From an uncultured Thioclava sp. (GTDB lineage: Bacteria > Pseudomonadota > Alphaproteobacteria > Rhodobacterales > Rhodobacteraceae): DNA of 50,560 nucleotides. The stretch lies in the NCBI RefSeq assembly GCF_913064665.1, contig NZ_CAJYBT010000025.1, positions 1-50,560 on the forward strand, in the 5' to 3' direction. This document shows positions 4,168 through 50,560 of the stretch, one piece after another. Every line of letters begins with the position of its first letter. Within the stretch, counting starts at the first letter, position 1. The translations under genes were made by a program, and so were the position numbers. The notes under the pieces are model-generated. The model ran no database searches and was not told where the DNA came from. It was given only the letters and a program-made list of their open reading frames with translations.

Positions 4168-5781
4168 ATGCGTTTTGATTACCTGATCTTGGGGGGCGGT
4201 TCTGCGGGCGCGGTTCTGGCCGCGCGGCTGTCGCAAGACCCCGATTGCACCGTTTGCCTGATTGAGGCGGGCACAGAGGCGCGCGACATCCTTGTGCGTG
4301 CGCCCGCGCTGGTGGCGGCGATGGTTTCGGGGCGGCCGCAACTCCACAACTGGGCCTATCACACCACGCCGCAAGCCGAGCTTAACGGGCGGCGCGGATT
4401 TCAGCCACGTGGCCGCGGGCTTGGCGGTTCATCCGCGATCAACGCGATGCTTTATGTGCGCGGCCAGCCGCAGGATTACGACGATTGGGCCGAGATGGGG
4501 GCCGAAGGTTGGGATTGGCAAAGCTGCCAGCCGTGGTTTCTGGCAAGCGAGCGCAACATGCGCGGCGCTTCTGACTGGCATGGCGATGCGGGGCCGCTAC
4601 AGGTGGGCGATCAACGCCGCCCGCGCCCGATTTCGCGTGCTTTCGTTGAGGCTTGCGCGGCAGTGCAATGCCCGCCAAACGCCGATTTCAACGGCCCCGA
4701 CCAAGAGGGCGCGGGGCTGTATCAGGTCACGCAGTTTTGGGACGGGCCGCGCAAGGGCGAGCGTTGCTCGGTCGCGGCGGCCTATTTGCACCCGGTCATG
4801 GCACGGCCCAACCTGACCGTTCTGACCCGCGCGCGCGCCGAGAAAATCCTGACAACGGACGCCCGCGCCACCGGGGCGCTGATCCGCCAAGGGCGCAAGC
4901 GATTCAGTGTTGAGGCCACGCGCGAGGTGATCCTCAGCGCCGGGGCCTTTGGCTCGCCCCAACTGTTGATGCTGTCGGGCATCGGACCTGCCGATCATCT
5001 GCGCGAACACGGGATCGAACCGGTGCTGGACCTGCCCGGCGTGGGGGCGAACCTGCACGACCATCTCGATTACATCATCAGCTACACCTCGCCGCGCCGC
5101 GATGTGGTGGGGCTCAATCCGCGCGGGATGATGCGATTGGCGCGCGCAGGCGCGGGCTGGCGCAAACATGGCGAGGGGCTGTTTGCCTCGCCGATGGCCG
5201 AGGGCGGGGCGTTTTTGCGCTCGGACCCCAGCCTCGATCGGCCCGATCTGCAACTGCATTTCGTGGTTGGCATCGTCGATCAGCACATGCGCAAACCCCA
5301 TCTCGCGGATGGCTGGTCGGTGCATGTCTGCGCAATGCGGCCAAAATCGCGCGGCACGCTGCGCTTGGCCAGCGCCGATCCGCGCGCCGCGCCGCTGATC
5401 GACCCGGCGTTTCTGCAAGATCCGCGCGACCAAGCCCTGATGCTGCGCGCCGCCCGCCTGCTAGAGCAGATCACCGACGCCCCGTCGTTGGACCCGTGGC
5501 GCGGGCGCAAACTGTATCCCCATGACGGAACGGACGCCGCGCTGATGGCCGATATCCGCGCGCGCGCCGATACGATCTATCACCCGGTGGGCACCTGCCG
5601 GATGGGGCGCGACGAGATGGCGGTGGTTGACCCGCAACTGCGCGTGCAGGGGATCGCGGGGCTGCGGGTGGTGGATGCCTCGGTGATGCCGCAAGTGGTG
5701 TCGGGCAATACCAACGCCCCCACGGTGATGATTGCTGAACGCGCGGCCGCGTTTATGCGCGCTGATCGGTTGGGTGATTGA
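4168..5781 (+). CDS. GMC-family FAD-dependent oxidoreductase (choline dehydrogenase-like)
   Basis: A 537-residue flavoenzyme of the glucose-methanol-choline family. The ADP-binding motif is at the N-terminus (LILGGGSAGAVLAARL, E at the end of strand 2). GMC signature 1 follows (RGRGLGGSSAINAMLYVRG), then signature 2 (GAFGSPQLLMLSGIGP). The C-terminal active-site block has IYHPVGTCRMG and the SGNTNAPT segment. Such enzymes oxidise primary alcohols to aldehydes in the cytoplasm. Choline dehydrogenase is the usual automatic name, but no betaine-aldehyde dehydrogenase, betI or transporter is adjacent, so the substrate cannot be assigned. The start follows GGGGAGG at about 4155. Its 3' end overlaps the convergent GFA gene by 29 bases. 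Confidence 0.9.
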   Translation: MRFDYLILGGGSAGAVLAARLSQDPDCTVCLIEAGTEARDILVRAPALVAAMVSGRPQLHNWAYHTTPQAELNGRRGFQPRGRGLGGSSAINAMLYVRGQPQDYDDWAEMGAEGWDWQSCQPWFLASERNMRGASDWHGDAGPLQVGDQRRPRPISRAFVEACAAVQCPPNADFNGPDQEGAGLYQVTQFWDGPRKGERCSVAAAYLHPVMARPNLTVLTRARAEKILTTDARATGALIRQGRKRFSVEATREVILSAGAFGSPQLLMLSGIGPADHLREHGIEPVLDLPGVGANLHDHLDYIISYTSPRRDVVGLNPRGMMRLARAGAGWRKHGEGLFASPMAEGGAFLRSDPSLDRPDLQLHFVVGIVDQHMRKPHLADGWSVHVCAMRPKSRGTLRLASADPRAAPLIDPAFLQDPRDQALMLRAARLLEQITDAPSLDPWRGRKLYPHDGTDAALMADIRARADTIYHPVGTCRMGRDEMAVVDPQLRVQGIAGLRVVDASVMPQVVSGNTNAPTVMIAERAAAFMRADRLGD

Positions 5782-43409: not shown

Positions 43410-44552
43410 TCAGAGCGCGTGTCGAAGGATCCGGATCAATGCCTCGTGGCTTAGCGTCACTGGGTTTCCTGCCATCGATGAACTTGATTGCGCGAGACGC
43501 GCGGTCTCGTCGCAGTCATTCGGGTCAAAACCCATTGCTGAAAGATGGGAAAGCCCCCAATCGTCGATCCGTTTTTCAAGCGCAGAAAAGGCATCGGCCC
43601 TGGCGACACCAAGCGCTGCCCCCAACCAGTCAGCGACCGCACCCAACCGCTCTATCAGAGCGGTATTACCCGACGCGGCCGCCTGATTAGCCAAAAGAAC
43701 ACCCGGCAGAAGCCTGCCACATAATGCGCCATGCCCTGCGTTGCTCCGTCCGCCGACAACGCCCGCAATGCCGTGGACTGCGCCCAGGCCAGCATTCGCC
43801 AGCGCGATTCCACCAAAAAAGCTTGCGCGCGCCATATCATCGCGTGCGGCGGGCTTTTCTTCTTCCATCAGCTGCGCAAGTGCGCCGATCGCGCGCGGAA
43901 TTGCCTCACGGCAGAGCGCATCGGTGAGGATATTCGCACGGCTGCTGACGAAGGGCTCAATCACTTGCGTCAGCGCATCCAGACCTGAAGACAGTGTCAC
44001 GGTGTGCGGACAATCATCGGTCAGGGCGGGGTCGATCAGAGCCAGATCTGCCAACATTCGATCGTCCCGCAAGCTGACTTTGCGCCTGTGTTCGGGAAAG
44101 GAAATAACAGCGTTTTTTGTGGCTTCTGCCCCGGTGCCAGCAGTGGTCGGGATAGCCACGAAGGGCAGTGGTGCGCGGTCCAGTGACCGCCCGTCGCCTA
44201 CAATCTCGAAATGGACCAGCGGATCAGCGGCGCCTTGTGCCAAAGCCGCCAACGCCTTGCCAAGATCAATGGCGGAGCCGCCGCCGACAGCCACGACGCA
44301 ATCGGGCGCCAAAGTGCGGATGTTGTCGAGGGCCGCTACGAGGTCAGGAAAAGAAGGTTCCCCCATAGAGACAACTGTCTCGACCATCGCCCCCTTCTTG
44401 CGCAGGTCATCTTGCAAAGTGTCTGCCCACGCAACCGAGCGCCCACGCACCAACACGATACGCTTTCCCAAACGACATATCTCGTCGACAGCCTCTGTAC
44501 GTTTGCCACGTCCAAAGATGATCTTAGCGGGAAGCTTCAAAGAGAAGGCCAT
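43410..44552 (-). CDS. Iron-containing alcohol dehydrogenase family protein
   Basis: A 380-residue group III (iron-type) dehydrogenase. It has [16 protein letters not shown] at the N-terminus, the NAD-binding VVAVGGGSAIDLGKALAALA, IPTTAGTGAEATKNAVI, SGLDALTQVIEPFVS, and metal-ligand histidines in GAVHGIAGVVGG and NAGHGALCGRLLP. ATG 44552 overlaps the glpK stop by one base (TGATG), so it is translated with glycerol kinase. The context suggests a role in glycerol or related polyol metabolism, but maleylacetate-reductase or general alcohol oxidation cannot be excluded. Element C lies 25 bases past its stop. Confidence 0.9.
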   Translation of the reverse strand: MAFSLKLPAKIIFGRGKRTEAVDEICRLGKRIVLVRGRSVAWADTLQDDLRKKGAMVETVVSMGEPSFPDLVAALDNIRTLAPDCVVAVGGGSAIDLGKALAALAQGAADPLVHFEIVGDGRSLDRAPLPFVAIPTTAGTGAEATKNAVISFPEHRRKVSLRDDRMLADLALIDPALTDDCPHTVTLSSGLDALTQVIEPFVSSRANILTDALCREAIPRAIGALAQLMEEEKPAARDDMARASFFGGIALANAGLGAVHGIAGVVGGRSNAGHGALCGRLLPGVLLANQAAASGNTALIERLGAVADWLGAALGVARADAFSALEKRIDDWGLSHLSAMGFDPNDCDETARLAQSSSSMAGNPVTLSHEALIRILRHAL

Positions 44553-46048
44553 CATGCACCTGTGCCGAATTCGATTGTTGCTTGGACCGCACGTTTCCAC
44601 GCGGCATAGCGCTGATCGCGCGCGGCCTCATCCATCTGCGGATCGAATTGCCGCTCGAGCTTCCAACTTTGCGCAAATTCTTCAGGCTCTGGATAGATTC
44701 CGGCTTTGTAGCCCGCAAGCCACGCTGCGCCAAGTGCTGTGATCTCAAGCACTTCGGGCCGATCTACCGGCGCGCCGAGAATATCGGCCAGAAATTGCAT
44801 CGCCCAGTCCGAGTCCGTCACGCCACCATCGACACGCAGGATGGGCCGGGTATCGTCTGACCAATCTGCCTGCATCGCTTCCAACAGGTCGCGGGTCTGG
44901 AAACCCACCGATTCTAGCGCCGCGCGCGCAAACTCGGCGGGGCCCGAATTCCGGGTCAGGCCAAAGACTGCGCCACGACAATCGGGGTTCCAATATGGCG
45001 CTCCAAGGCCAGTGAAGGCGGGCACGATGATGACCTCTTGTTCCGGGTCGGCGGTGCTTGCAAGCTCTTGAGTCTGGCGCGCGTGTTCAATGATATCGAG
45101 CCCATCGCGGAGCCAATGGACCACCGCGCCCGCAATGAAGATCGAGCCCTCAAGCGCATAGGTGACCTTGCCGTCCAACTGATAGGCGATGGTCGTCAGA
45201 AGGCGATTTTCCGAGCGCACCATCTGATCGCCCGTATTCAGAAGGGCGAAACAGCCCGTCCCAAAGGTCGATTTCAGCATTCCGGGTTTGAAACATGCCT
45301 GCCCTACGGTTGCGGCCTGTTGATCGCCCGCAACGCCGAGGATCGGGATTTCCGCGCCGAAGAAATCGCTCTGCGTGGTGCCGAAATCAGCGGCGCAGTC
45401 CTTGACCTGGGGTAACATGTTGATCGGGATTTCAAGCTTGGCGGCGATCGTCGGGGACCAGCGCCCTTTGACAATATCATAGAGCATCGTGCGCGCGGCG
45501 TTCGTCGCGTCGGTCACATGCGCCACGCCGCCTGTAAGATTCCAGATCAGCCAGCTGTCGATCGTGCCGAAGGCAAGCTTTCCGGCCTCGGCTTTCTCGC
45601 GTGCGCCATCGACGTTTTCCAGCAGCCAGCGCAGTTTTGTGGCCGAGAAATAGGGATCGATGATGAGGCCGGTGCGCGTGGTGACAGTTTCTTCGAACCC
45701 ATCCTTATGCAGGCTGTGGCAATAGTCCGAAGTCCGGCGGTCTTGCCAGACGATTGCGTTGTGGATGGGCAGGCCCGTTTCGCGGTCCCACACCACCGTG
45801 GTTTCGCGCTGATTGGTGATGCCGATGCCCGCGACCTGATCGGGCGTGATCCTGGCTTTCTTTATCGCTTCGCGCGCTGTCGTCAGAACGCTTTCCCAGA
45901 TTTCCATCGCGTCATGTTCGACCCAGCCCGGATGCGGAAAATGCTGCGCAAACTCGGTCTGTGCACTGGCCAACGGCCGCAAATCGTTGCCGAAGACAAT
46001 CGCACGTGAGGACGTTGTGCCCTGATCAATCGCTAAAATATGGGGCAT
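44552..46048 (-). CDS. glpK: Glycerol kinase
   Basis: A 498-residue FGGY-family kinase that phosphorylates glycerol to sn-glycerol-3-phosphate. It has the phosphate-binding [68 protein letters not shown], the FGGY signature region [11 protein letters not shown], and [13 protein letters not shown]-like [18 protein letters not shown]. It acts on glycerol delivered by the upstream GlpV-type ABC system. A hairpin at 46126-46150 separates it from glpV, so it may have its own promoter or reduced readthrough. Confidence 0.97.
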
Positions 46049-46168: not shown

Positions 46169-47899
46169 TTACTCATTCCAGCTTTTGACCAGCTCGTCGT
46201 AGCTCACTGTCACCGGCTGCTCACGCTCGTTATCAAGCTTGAGCTTGGGCGACTGCGAACCGTTCTCGACCGAATAGTTGTGCCACCAGGCAAGATCGTG
46301 CTTGTCGGCCAGTTTCGGGCCTTTGTCGCCCTGAACGCCCGAACGCTCGATCCGGCCCATCACCTTCTCTTGTGCGTCGCACAGCGAATCCATCGCTTCT
46401 TGCACGGTTTTTGCACCAGAGGACGCATCGCCGATATTCTGCCACCAGAGCTGTGCCAGCTTGGCATAGTCCGGCACATTGGTGCCCGTCGGCGTCCACT
46501 GAACGCGCGCGGGCGAGCGATAGAATTCGACCAAACCACCCAGATCAGGCGCGCGCTTGGTAAAGCTCTTGTCCTGAATCGTGCTTTCGCGAATGAAGGT
46601 CAAACCGACCTGGCTTTTCTTCACATCGACCAGCTTCGAAGTCACGAACTGCGCATAGAGCCAAGCGGCCTGTGCGCGCTTGAGCGGCGTCGACTTCATC
46701 AACGTCCACGAGCCCACATCCTGGTAGCCAAGCTTCATGCCCTTTTCCCAGTAGGGACCGTGCGGCGAGGGCGCCATACGCCATTTCGGCGAGCCATCCT
46801 CATTCACGACTGGCAGGCCGGGCTTCACCATATCGGCGGTGAAGGCGGTATACCAGAACGCCTGCTGGGCAACCTCCCCCTGTGCGGGCACCGGGCCAGC
46901 TTCACCAAAGGTCATGCCTTCGGCCGATGGCGGGGCGTAGTTCTTGAGCCAGTCGATATATTTCTGCACCGCATAGACGGCGGCCGGACCGTTGGTCGCG
47001 CCACCGCGATCAACGCAAGAGCCGACCGGCTGATCGTTCTCATTGACGCGGATGCCCCATTCATCGACCGGTTTGCCGTTGGGCAAGCCCTTGTCGCCCT
47101 CACCCGCCATCGACAGCCACGCATCGGTGAAGCGCCAGCCAAGTGAGGGGTCTTTCTTGCCGTAATCCATGTTGCCATAGACTTTTTTCGGCCCGCCAAT
47201 ATAGGACATGTCGCGCCCGGTGAAGAACTTGGCGATGTCTTCATAGGCCGCCCAGTTGACCGGCACACCCAGATCATAGCCGTATTCCTTTTTGAAGTCG
47301 GCTTTGGTCTTGGCGTCGTTGAACCAGTCGTACCGGAACCAGTAAAGGTTCGCGAATTGCTGGTCGGGCAACTGATACAACTTGCCATCGGGCGCGGTGG
47401 TAAAGCTGAGTCCGATGAAGTCGTTGAGATCGAAGTACGGATCGGTCACAGCCTTGCCGTCGCCCGCCATCCAGTCGGTCAGGTTGCGCACCTGGCCATA
47501 GCGCCAATGCGTCCCGATAAAGTCGGAATCGTTGACATAGGCGTCATAGATGTTCTCGCCAGTCTGCATCTGGGTCTGGATCTTCTCGACCACATCGCCT
47601 TCCTGAATCACGTCATGGATGACCTTGATCCCGGTGATCTTGGAAAACCACGGCGCCAGCACCTTGGATTCATAGGCATGCGTGGTGAGCGATTCCGACA
47701 CGACGTGAATTTCCATGCCCTGATAGGGCTGGGCCGCGTCGACGAACCATTGCATTTCTTTTTCGGCATCGGCGCGTGACAGCGTGGTCATATCCCCGAT
47801 CTCTTGATCAAGGAACGCCTTGCCTTCGGTCATGTCGGCAAATGCCGGCGAGCCGATGCACAGCACCAAGGCCATTGCAGTTGTTAAGTGTAGTCTCAT
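46169..47899 (-). CDS. glpV: Glycerol ABC transporter substrate-binding protein (GlpV-type)
   Basis: A 576-residue periplasmic binding protein with signal sequence MRLHLTTAMALVLCIGSPAFA, unusually long for a sugar-binding protein but normal for GlpV of the GlpSTPQV glycerol importer of Rhizobiales and Rhodobacterales. Family segments include AQPYQGMEIHVVSESLTTHAY, VIQEGDVVEKIQTQMQTG, LPDQQFANLYWFRYDWF and AWLYAQFVTSKLVD. It captures glycerol for the GlpP/GlpQ permease. GGAGGAG precedes the start. The DUF2160 gene and glpQ lie just upstream in the same direction, and glpK follows. Confidence 0.93.
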   Translation of the reverse strand: MRLHLTTAMALVLCIGSPAFADMTEGKAFLDQEIGDMTTLSRADAEKEMQWFVDAAQPYQGMEIHVVSESLTTHAYESKVLAPWFSKITGIKVIHDVIQEGDVVEKIQTQMQTGENIYDAYVNDSDFIGTHWRYGQVRNLTDWMAGDGKAVTDPYFDLNDFIGLSFTTAPDGKLYQLPDQQFANLYWFRYDWFNDAKTKADFKKEYGYDLGVPVNWAAYEDIAKFFTGRDMSYIGGPKKVYGNMDYGKKDPSLGWRFTDAWLSMAGEGDKGLPNGKPVDEWGIRVNENDQPVGSCVDRGGATNGPAAVYAVQKYIDWLKNYAPPSAEGMTFGEAGPVPAQGEVAQQAFWYTAFTADMVKPGLPVVNEDGSPKWRMAPSPHGPYWEKGMKLGYQDVGSWTLMKSTPLKRAQAAWLYAQFVTSKLVDVKKSQVGLTFIRESTIQDKSFTKRAPDLGGLVEFYRSPARVQWTPTGTNVPDYAKLAQLWWQNIGDASSGAKTVQEAMDSLCDAQEKVMGRIERSGVQGDKGPKLADKHDLAWWHNYSVENGSQSPKLKLDNEREQPVTVSYDELVKSWNE

Positions 47900-47945: not shown

Positions 47946-48218
47946 TCAGACCCAACGGAACACGGCGGCGGCGAAGATCAGGCTAACAACAAGCCCTCCC
48001 CAAACCGCTGTGCCCACAAGGCCAAGCCAGATCAGATTGAGAAACGCCGCACTGAGCAGGCTGATGAACAGCCGGTCGCCACGCGTGGTTTCAATGCGCA
48101 GCAAGCCCATACGGGGCGTTTCTGGATACCTTATCGCCAGCACCGAGAAGATCAGCAGCAGCGCTGCGATCACGATGAAGAACGTCGCCGTTGGCCAAGT
48201 CCATGCCATCCAACTCAT
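47946..48218 (-). CDS. DUF2160-family membrane protein of the glycerol importer operon
   Basis: A 90-residue protein with two to three hydrophobic segments (about residues 6-28, [21 protein letters not shown], and about 52-86, [20 protein letters not shown] onward). DUF2160 genes lie between glpQ and glpV in GlpSTPQV operons; the protein is thought to be an accessory membrane component, without a proven role. It starts 12 bases after the glpQ stop and ends 46 bases before glpV. Confidence 0.88.
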
Positions 48219-48230
48219 TGTCGAACTCCT

Positions 48231-48464
48231 TCAAACCCGGCCCAGGGCAAAGCCCTTGGCGATGTAGTTGCGGACGAAATAGATCACGAGCGCGCCGGGG
48301 ATGATGGTCAGCACACCAGCTGCCGCCAGCAGCCCCCAATCCACCCCCGAGGCCGAGACCGTACGTGTCATCGTGGCGGCAATCGGCTTGGCATCGACCG
48401 ACGTCAAGGTTCGGGCCAACAGCAGCTCGACCCAGCTGAACATAAAGCAGAAAAAGGCGGTGAC
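48231..48464 (-). pseudogene. glpQ: Glycerol ABC transporter permease GlpQ, C-terminal 77 codons only
   Basis: The last 77 residues of a MalG-type permease: the [20 protein letters not shown] segment, [19 protein letters not shown], a membrane helix ([21 protein letters not shown]) and the usual end [11 protein letters not shown]. GlpQ normally has about 280 residues. Here the frame stops matching the family just upstream of the Val codon at 48462-48464, where plus-strand chemoreceptor coding takes over. The truncation coincides with the composition break, so it is more likely an assembly join than a natural deletion. Upstream glpS, glpT and glpP are missing for the same reason. Confidence 0.85.
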
Positions 48465-49169
48465 GTTATCAAACGAACAGTCACTGCCATGAGCGAAATC
48501 AATACCTCAAGTAAGAAAATTTCAGACATCATTACCACTATCGATGGTATTGCATTCCAAACCAACCTGCTGGCCTTGAATGCAGCGGTGGAAGCAGCCA
48601 GAGCTGGAGACCAGGGTCGTGGTTTTGCCGTTGTTGCGAGTGAAGTACGTAACCTGGCACAACGTACTGCCGAAGCAGCCAAAGAAATCAAAGTTTTAAT
48701 TAGCGATAGTGTCGAAAAAGCCGAAGCCGGTACCAAACTTGTTGATGAATCGGGTGTTACTCTGCAAGAAATTGTTGATGGCACCAAAAAAGTTGCCGAT
48801 ATCATTGTTGAGATCAACGCAGCCAGTCAGGAACAAACGTCCAGCATTGATCAGATCAATAAAACCATTACTCAGATGGATGACATGACGCAACAAAACG
48901 CTTCCATGGTTGAGGAATCTGCGTCGGCAAGTCGTTCTGTAGAAGATCAGGCCAATACGCTAAATAAACTCATGGAGTTTTTCAATGTGACCAATTCTGT
49001 GCTCACATCAAGTTCCGCCAAAAAAGTAACAACGACTAGTAGCGCATCACAAACCAAAATAGCTGAACGGCCTTTAGCCCCTGCGCCACAGGCGCAGCTA
49101 CATAAGCCTGCAGCTCAGCCTAAAAAGATTGCCGCTAGCACCGCTGAAGAGGATTGGGCTGAATTCTAG
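48456..49169 (+). pseudogene. Methyl-accepting chemotaxis protein, C-terminal signalling part (5' missing)
   Basis: The open frame of ~237 codons begins inside the protein ([20 protein letters not shown]) and carries the conserved chemoreceptor tip ([20 protein letters not shown], then [20 protein letters not shown]), a methylation helix, and a tail ending in EEDWAEF. Sensor, membrane and HAMP parts are absent. The first ATG (48489) has no ribosome-binding site, so this is a cut gene rather than a short protein. Codon use is AT-rich and gammaproteobacterial-like, unlike everything to the left. Confidence 0.9.
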
Positions 49170-49192
49170 CAATTAGCGCGACATCTGAAATT

Positions 49193-49223
49193 AAAAGCCG
49201 GATCATGTATCCGGCTTTTTTTT
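49193..49223 (+). terminator. Intrinsic terminator after the chemoreceptor
   Basis: AAAAGCCGGAT at 49193-49203 and ATCCGGCTTTT at 49209-49219, loop CATGT, followed by a run of eight T in total. It lies 24 bases past the stop. Confidence 0.93.
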
Positions 49224-49331
49224 GCCTGCTCACGCCTCCAATATATCGCTGCACATTGACCACGATCAAACTCCCTGTCTATATAATTGTCTAAAATAAT
49301 AGCGAAACCTAAATAACAACGAGGCAAGTTA

Positions 49332-49562
49332 ATGCACCACCCACTGATTGAAGAATTTACTGAATACAAAGACCAGCTGCACGAATTAAAAATGAGCAAC
49401 TCTCATTTCAGACGTTTGGCGCATGAATATGAGGGCATTGATAAGTCGGTCTCACGTGCAGAGCAAGGTATTGAGACGGTTAACGATGAATATCTTTCAG
49501 AAATAAAAAAAGAACGACTACACCTGAAAGATCTGATTTTTCAGATGCTGAGAAATAAATAA
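49332..49562 (+). CDS. YdcH-family (DUF465) protein
   Basis: A 76-residue charged helical protein (MHHPLIEEFTEYKDQLHELK, then HFRRLAHEYEGIDKSVSRAE, ending in a lysine-rich helix LSEIKKERLHLKDLI). The H-F-R-R-L-A-x-E-Y pattern is that of gammaproteobacterial YdcH. Function unknown. GAGG precedes ATG 49332. It is 19 bases upstream of the DksA-type gene, likely in the same transcript. It belongs to the foreign right-hand segment and is unrelated in origin to the YdcH gene at 38.6 kb. Confidence 0.85.
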   Translation: MHHPLIEEFTEYKDQLHELKMSNSHFRRLAHEYEGIDKSVSRAEQGIETVNDEYLSEIKKERLHLKDLIFQMLRNK

Positions 49563-49581
49563 CACCATATAGGAAGGAACA

Positions 49582-49920
49582 ATGCCCTCTTTTGATAATG
49601 TAAAAACACAACTGCTCTCTTTACGTGAGGAATATATGCGTCGAATTGATGCTATTGAAGTTGAGACTCATCACAAGGAGGAAGCGGTTGAAAAAGACTT
49701 TGCCGAGCAGGCCACTCAAAGTGAGAACGATGATGTTCTTGCAGCTCTTGATGATGAAGCGCAACTGATGGTGATGCAAATTGATGCGGCGCTAGGTCGG
49801 ATTGAATCAGGCAGTTATGGCCTGTGTAAATCATGCAGTGAATCGATTCTAGAAAAACGCTTGCAAGCCGTTCCTTTTGCGGAGATGTGCATAGCGTGCG
49901 CAGAGAAAGCTTCAGGCTGA
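49582..49920 (+). CDS. DksA/TraR-type C4 zinc finger protein
   Basis: A 112-residue protein with an N-terminal coiled coil (about residues 5-60) and a C-terminal DksA/TraR zinc finger, CKSC at about 87-90 and CIAC at about 106-109 (GLCKSCSESILEKRLQAVPF between). Proteins of this family bind RNA polymerase through its secondary channel; short forms lacking the full DksA tip often have unknown targets. AGGAAGG precedes the ATG. It is followed by an intrinsic terminator. Confidence 0.9.
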   Translation: MPSFDNVKTQLLSLREEYMRRIDAIEVETHHKEEAVEKDFAEQATQSENDDVLAALDDEAQLMVMQIDAALGRIESGSYGLCKSCSESILEKRLQAVPFAEMCIACAEKASG

Positions 49921-49943
49921 TTTGCATTTTAAAACTTAAAAAG

Positions 49944-49969
49944 GCCGAGATATTTTCTCGGCTTTTTTT
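49944..49969 (+). terminator. Intrinsic terminator after the DksA-type gene
   Basis: GCCGAGA at 49944-49950 and TCTCGGC at 49956-49962 with loop TATTT, followed by seven T. Confidence 0.93.
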
Positions 49970-50059
49970 ATGCGCTAAAAAATCATATTTGCCGGCATGA
50001 AACTATTTAGTGTCATCGCCCTCTCAGTCATAACAATTAATGAGACAGAGACAACAATA

Positions 50060-50560
50060 ATGAAAAAATTATTTCTGAGCATGATTTTCCTTTCTGGCCT
50101 GACAGGCACAGTTGGCATTCATGCTTCTGAAAATGCAAACGCCACTTTTGCCGGCGGCTGCTTCTGGTGCATGGAACCACCCTTCGACACACTCGATGGC
50201 GTCCTCTCCACCACCTCCGGTTATACCGATGGCAAGAAAATAAACCCTACTTACAAAGAAGTCTCAGCTGGCGGCACGGGACACACCGAAGCGATTCAAA
50301 TTAAATACGATGCTTCGAAAATCAGCTATGAAGAGCTACTGGCCGTATTTTGGAAAAATATCGACCCAACCGCCAAAAACGCCCAGTTTTGTGACCACGG
50401 CACTCAGTACCGCAGCGGCATCTACTACCACGATGAAGATCAATGCAAAACGGCTGAAGCTTCATTGAGATCACTCGATCAGGACAAATCATTCAAAAAC
50501 GACATTGTCACCGGGCTGAGAGCCGCCACCACCTTCTACCCCGCTGAGGACTACCATCAG
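50060..50560 (+). CDS. msrA: Peptide methionine-S-sulfoxide reductase MsrA, 3' end outside the window
   Basis: A frame open for 167 codons to the window edge. It begins with a likely export signal (MKKLFLSMIFLSGLTGTVGI to HASEN). The MsrA active site follows (FAGGCFWCMEPPFDTLDGV, nucleophile in G-C-F-W-C), then SGYTDG, the GGTGHTEAIQIKYD block, and DPTAKNAQFCDHGTQYRSGI. It reduces the S-epimer of oxidised methionine in proteins, here probably in the periplasm. It belongs to the foreign right-hand segment. The last residues Y-H-Q are those expected near the resolving-cysteine region. Confidence 0.95.
   Translation, partial: MKKLFLSMIFLSGLTGTVGIHASENANATFAGGCFWCMEPPFDTLDGVLSTTSGYTDGKKINPTYKEVSAGGTGHTEAIQIKYDASKISYEELLAVFWKNIDPTAKNAQFCDHGTQYRSGIYYHDEDQCKTAEASLRSLDQDKSFKNDIVTGLRAATTFYPAEDYHQ

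Follow-up and report, generated by a model that had tools for sequence, protein, structure and literature searches.

A contig end that very probably joins two genomes: an alphaproteobacterial glycerol operon linked to a gammaproteobacterial chemoreceptor gene through a short shared stretch

Chimeric contigs and the glycerol operon of the host

Metagenome-assembled or contaminated genomes are known to suffer from misassembly into chimeric contigs, an error that the GUNC paper calls relatively rare (PMC8201837). Such contigs hold fragments of two lineages, as does the contig described here, and no difference from them was seen. The window, i.e., the whole stretch of DNA that was analysed, is the entire contig C25 of 50560 bases, and the end of the window is the end of the contig. 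The host assembly, G000, comprises 3.72 Mb in 94 contigs and is rated 99.99 % complete and 0.26 % contaminated; this low contamination figure gives no hint of the foreign end of C25.

The other described system that bears on this locus is the alphaproteobacterial glycerol ABC transporter operon, here presumably of the glpSTPQV type. As in that operon, and in the order found in the relative G009, the host carries glpR, glpD, glpS, and the start of glpT on contig C80, and glpQ, a DUF2160 gene, the binding-protein gene, and glpK on C25. Unlike that operon, the readable assembly of the host is without some 2.03 kb, namely the rest of glpT, glpP, and the 5' part of glpQ.

The right end of the host part of C25 is an ordinary operon of this kind, read on the minus strand. 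The glycerol kinase gene glpK lies at 44552..46048 (NCBIfam TIGR01311, 694 bits against a cut-off of 590; Pfam FGGY_N/FGGY_C). It is accompanied by the gene for the substrate-binding protein of the transporter (46169..47899), which we take to be glpV-like, by that for a small DUF2160 membrane protein (47946..48218; PF09928, E 2.4e-34), and by the 3' part of the permease gene glpQ, cut at the join (48231..48464; 73-82 % DNA identity with 13 relatives). At E 0.001, neither Pfam nor NCBIfam gave a match for the protein encoded by 46169..47899, which was named from the annotation of matching plasmid records. In total, 446 plasmid records match the glp region; the best ten, from Paracoccus, Salipiger, and Rhizobium, do so with 70-73 % identity, in agreement with the Rhodobacteraceae to which an earlier note, made from the letters of this DNA, had assigned the left side. 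Nine of these ten records carry the annotations ABC transporter substrate-binding protein, glpK, DUF2160, and carbohydrate ABC transporter permease. The glpQ fragment alone had no Pfam or NCBIfam match, and the permease of a relative (locus L005) matches the GlcU, UgpE, and MalG permease models, in each case below the curated cut-off. On the minus strand, 77 codons of the fragment are open from 48464 down to 48234, without a stop in the translation, which agrees with the view that glpQ is intact left of the join.

Elsewhere in the window, neither an Rfam match at gathering score nor a tRNA was found. At the left end of the contig, an open frame of 199 amino acids (357-956) lies between the end of a pheS-like gene and a pheT-like gene (names given by eye). 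It had no NCBIfam match and sits in a stretch of low G+C content (53.7 % at 1-1000).

The join at 48441-48464 and the change of source

Homology to the glp operon ends abruptly. Matches on this side were found in 13 of 40 relatives, all 13 of them stopping at 48455-48464, and in none of the 40 does a match span the join. When the 13 fetched loci were compared without gaps, 18-21 of the 24 bases at 48441-48464 agreed in every locus, as against 4-10 of the 36 bases at 48465-48500, where about 9 would agree by chance. The edge of the homology to genes for methyl-accepting chemotaxis proteins (MCPs) is less sharp. It was assessed with 26 of 29 fetched loci (L114, L119, and L128 were left out), which are the best-scoring places rather than all matches. 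To the right of the stretch 18-24 of 36 bases agree (mean 21.1), within 48441-48464 8-20 of 24 (mean 15.4), and to the left of 48441 8-14 of 36 (mean 11.6). At 48447-48464, 6-17 of 18 bases agree.

The coordinates 48441-48464 given for the join in the earlier note are correct, and the crossover falls inside this interval: within the same 24 bases, chemoreceptor homology begins near 48447 and glp homology ends at 48455-48464. The note had also proposed a shared stretch of about 24 bases that reads sensibly in both genes. Per-base agreement with the 13 glp and 26 MCP loci supports some 18 of these from both sides (48447-48464, clearly conserved in both sets and reading A-E-K-G-G-D in the MCP frame), the full 24 being possible but not proven. 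A stretch common to both parents, as looked for in a chimera, was found in this way in relatives rather than in the parent sequences themselves. To the right of the join, the plus-strand MCP gene is likewise intact, with a frame open from 48441 to 49169; its 3' part, cut at the join (48447..49169), matches PF00015 (MCPsignal) from profile position 10 (E 6.6e-53). Both genes are present as 3' parts that are cut at the join, as had been claimed.

Composition changes at the same place. The G+C content falls to 44.4 % on the right side from 56.9-66.6 % on the left (23 windows of 2096 bases each), and GC3 drops from 0.69-0.81 in the four left coding pieces tested to 0.38-0.56 in four right ones. 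A comparison of the tetranucleotide profiles of the two sides, which the earlier note had proposed as a check, put the right side at an L1 distance of 0.601 from the left, about twice the largest value among the 23 left windows (mean 0.229, maximum 0.302). The distance of the right side to seven gammaproteobacterial loci is 0.24-0.29. The claim that composition, codon use, and protein type change together was upheld, as G+C content, tetranucleotides, GC3, and best relatives all switch at the join, and the foreign piece runs on to the contig end without a return to host DNA. C25 has two sources, and the edge between them is at the join, so that two lineages flank one point as they do in a chimera. 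The idea that foreign contigs abound in G000 was rejected: of 21 small contigs examined, seven read as N, and all 14 readable ones are nearer to the left side than to the right.

The foreign piece and its relatives

The foreign piece makes up the last 2.1 kb of the contig (about 48447-50560). Downstream of the cut chemoreceptor gene, and also on the plus strand, it carries genes for a DUF465 protein (49332..49562; PF04325, with a protein identity of 72-82 % across eight loci of the family described below) and for a DksA/TraR-like zinc-finger protein (49582..49920; PF01258), followed by the first 167 codons of msrA, for methionine sulfoxide reductase (50060..50560; PF01625), which is cut by the contig end. 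Pfam revealed no integrase, transposase, or other mobile-element domain among these four genes. Visual inspection shows G+C hairpins, each with a run of T behind it, that resemble intrinsic terminators; they lie after the chemoreceptor gene (49190-49225) and after the DksA-like gene (49938-49972).

The source family was reached through 369 genomes drawn from the class of a Thiotrichaceae genome (G044), in which a DUF465 match in G306 led to one gammaproteobacterial family of 54 genomes. A separate search of the right side, also proposed in the earlier note, places it in this family by composition and gene cluster. The region 49200-49990 is matched in 35 of the 54 genomes, the longest matches having 73-74 % DNA identity, and the DUF465 gene adjoins the dksA/traR-like gene in all 12 family genomes that were fetched. 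An msrA gene follows within about 1.7 kb downstream of this pair in four of the eight family loci with long flanks. Chemoreceptor matches were obtained in 52 of the 54 genomes, the best of them in an open frame of 1075 amino acids. In none of eight family loci of 11-12 kb does a chemoreceptor gene stand beside the DUF465-dksA pair, and the MCP part of the gene order is without support from relatives.

None of the genomes searched is that of the source species, the longest family matches being those of 73-74 % identity. A scan of genome contigs with MsrA did not find this species either, the best identity among the matches listed being 69 %. In the 17 genomes behind the MsrA loci and the 369 genomes of the class draw, the matches listed fall mostly on the chemoreceptor gene and msrA, the longer ones at about 70 % identity. 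The right side as a whole matches 1065 plasmid records, none of which covers 80 % of it; 19 of the best 20 match the chemoreceptor part, and one, from Halomonas, matches msrA. This Halomonas record alone remains when the chemoreceptor part is removed from the query. Within G000, the only other matches to the foreign piece are chemoreceptor paralogues (66-72 %), and for an 11 kb locus taken from a relative of the source, C25 and 62 bases of C17 are the only matches.

In the lineage of the host, matches to the region 49170-50560 are all short or weak. Within the genus, one of the 15 further genomes has such a match (51 bases, E 2.9e-4), and within the family, 17 of 247 do (best E 6e-8). Neither the junction nor the insert is common to the relatives of the host, in the 40 compared across the join or in these genus and family genomes; a transfer private to one strain would escape such a comparison.

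Origin of the join and the missing part of the operon

The glp locus of the host continues elsewhere in the same assembly, as it would if C25 were a chimera. The glpR-glpD-glpS-glpT region of a relative matches contig C80 with 74-75 % identity; C80 ends inside glpT, its alignment keeps the usual glp order up to the last 5 bases, and no second junction is seen. With both contigs placed on four relatives, C80 lies about 2.03 kb from C25 in all but one, where the distance is about 2.10 kb. Most of the missing piece (query L005:2-1664, reaching from the glpT 3' end up to the stretch in glpQ) was looked for in the readable contigs of G000 without a match, and seven contigs read as N could hold it. 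Since C80 carries the continuation, the relatives show the matching spacing, and the N contigs may hold the rest, an assembly gap most likely divides a host operon that is itself intact. The seven smallest contigs of G000 (C88-C94, 2.07-2.81 kb) read as N, which makes about 17 kb invisible to searches.

The join is very probably a chimeric contig end made by the assembler, an artefact and not biology. That an assembler had linked two genomes through a short overlap was the reading favoured in the earlier note, and it is supported by the continuation on C80, by the match of the right side to a foreign family, and by the lack of any relative spanning the join. On this reading, bases 1 to about 48464 would come from the alphaproteobacterial host, and about 48447-50560 from a gammaproteobacterium that shared its sample or library. 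The sequence of the host would have broken off in glpQ, and the assembler would have crossed a stretch of 18-24 bases that glpQ of the host and the chemoreceptor gene of the other organism have in common by chance, going on for 2.1 kb in the foreign genome before it stopped. In short-read metagenome assemblers, the smallest k-mers in common use are of about this length, which suggests a link made at a small k-mer. No unbroken sequence of either parent over the join turned up in the readable contigs of G000 or in the genomes of the gammaproteobacterial family.

A chimera made in the tube, by ligation or PCR of fragments from two organisms and then assembled faithfully, would yield the identical sequence, and template switching in PCR is favoured by short shared stretches such as this one. 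It is nevertheless unlikely, as true reads normally outvote a single chimeric molecule, and the end of the host locus at the join, the foreign piece of 2.1 kb, and the missing 2.03 kb of the operon look rather like a loss of coverage. The assembler, and not a chimeric library molecule, most likely made the join. Illegitimate recombination, which the earlier note had named as the rarer alternative, ranks below both and is very improbable. In such an event, microhomology would have let gammaproteobacterial DNA of 2.1 kb or more enter glpQ, with loss of part of glpT, glpP, and glpQ, very recently and in one strain. Microhomology-mediated events do show short shared sequences at their joins, like the 18-24 bases here, and C80 leaves room for a second junction within the missing 2.03 kb, a piece for which the readable assembly offers no match. 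An event of this kind would have to be reconciled, however, with the absence of a junction-spanning match in all 40 relatives, with the scarcity of matches to the right side in genus and family, all of which are short or weak, with the lack of integrase and transposase domains, and with the normal glp order that C80 keeps almost to its last base. Moreover, the foreign piece retains its foreign composition and ends with the contig 2.1 kb past the join.

With an assembler-made chimera as the preferred explanation, the join matters for data hygiene only. The final 2.1 kb of C25 ought to be excluded before the chemoreceptor, the DksA-like protein, or MsrA is assigned to the alphaproteobacterium, and the same precaution holds before the glycerol transporter of the host is called broken.

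A second glpR-glpD-like region of G000 (C1:110633-113119) is 72 % identical to that of G009, and the match has no glpS alongside. Contig C83, which aligns over 99 bases, was rejected as the holder of the missing glpT piece, as it belongs to another sugar ABC operon and is 52-53 % identical to GlpT over 83 codons. C80 breaks off in glpT (5300-5469), presumably in the Walker B region, and its last codons depart from those of the relatives; C83 (1-260) begins at roughly the equivalent point in another sugar ABC ATPase. The ends of both contigs lie at a conserved motif that is common to paralogues.
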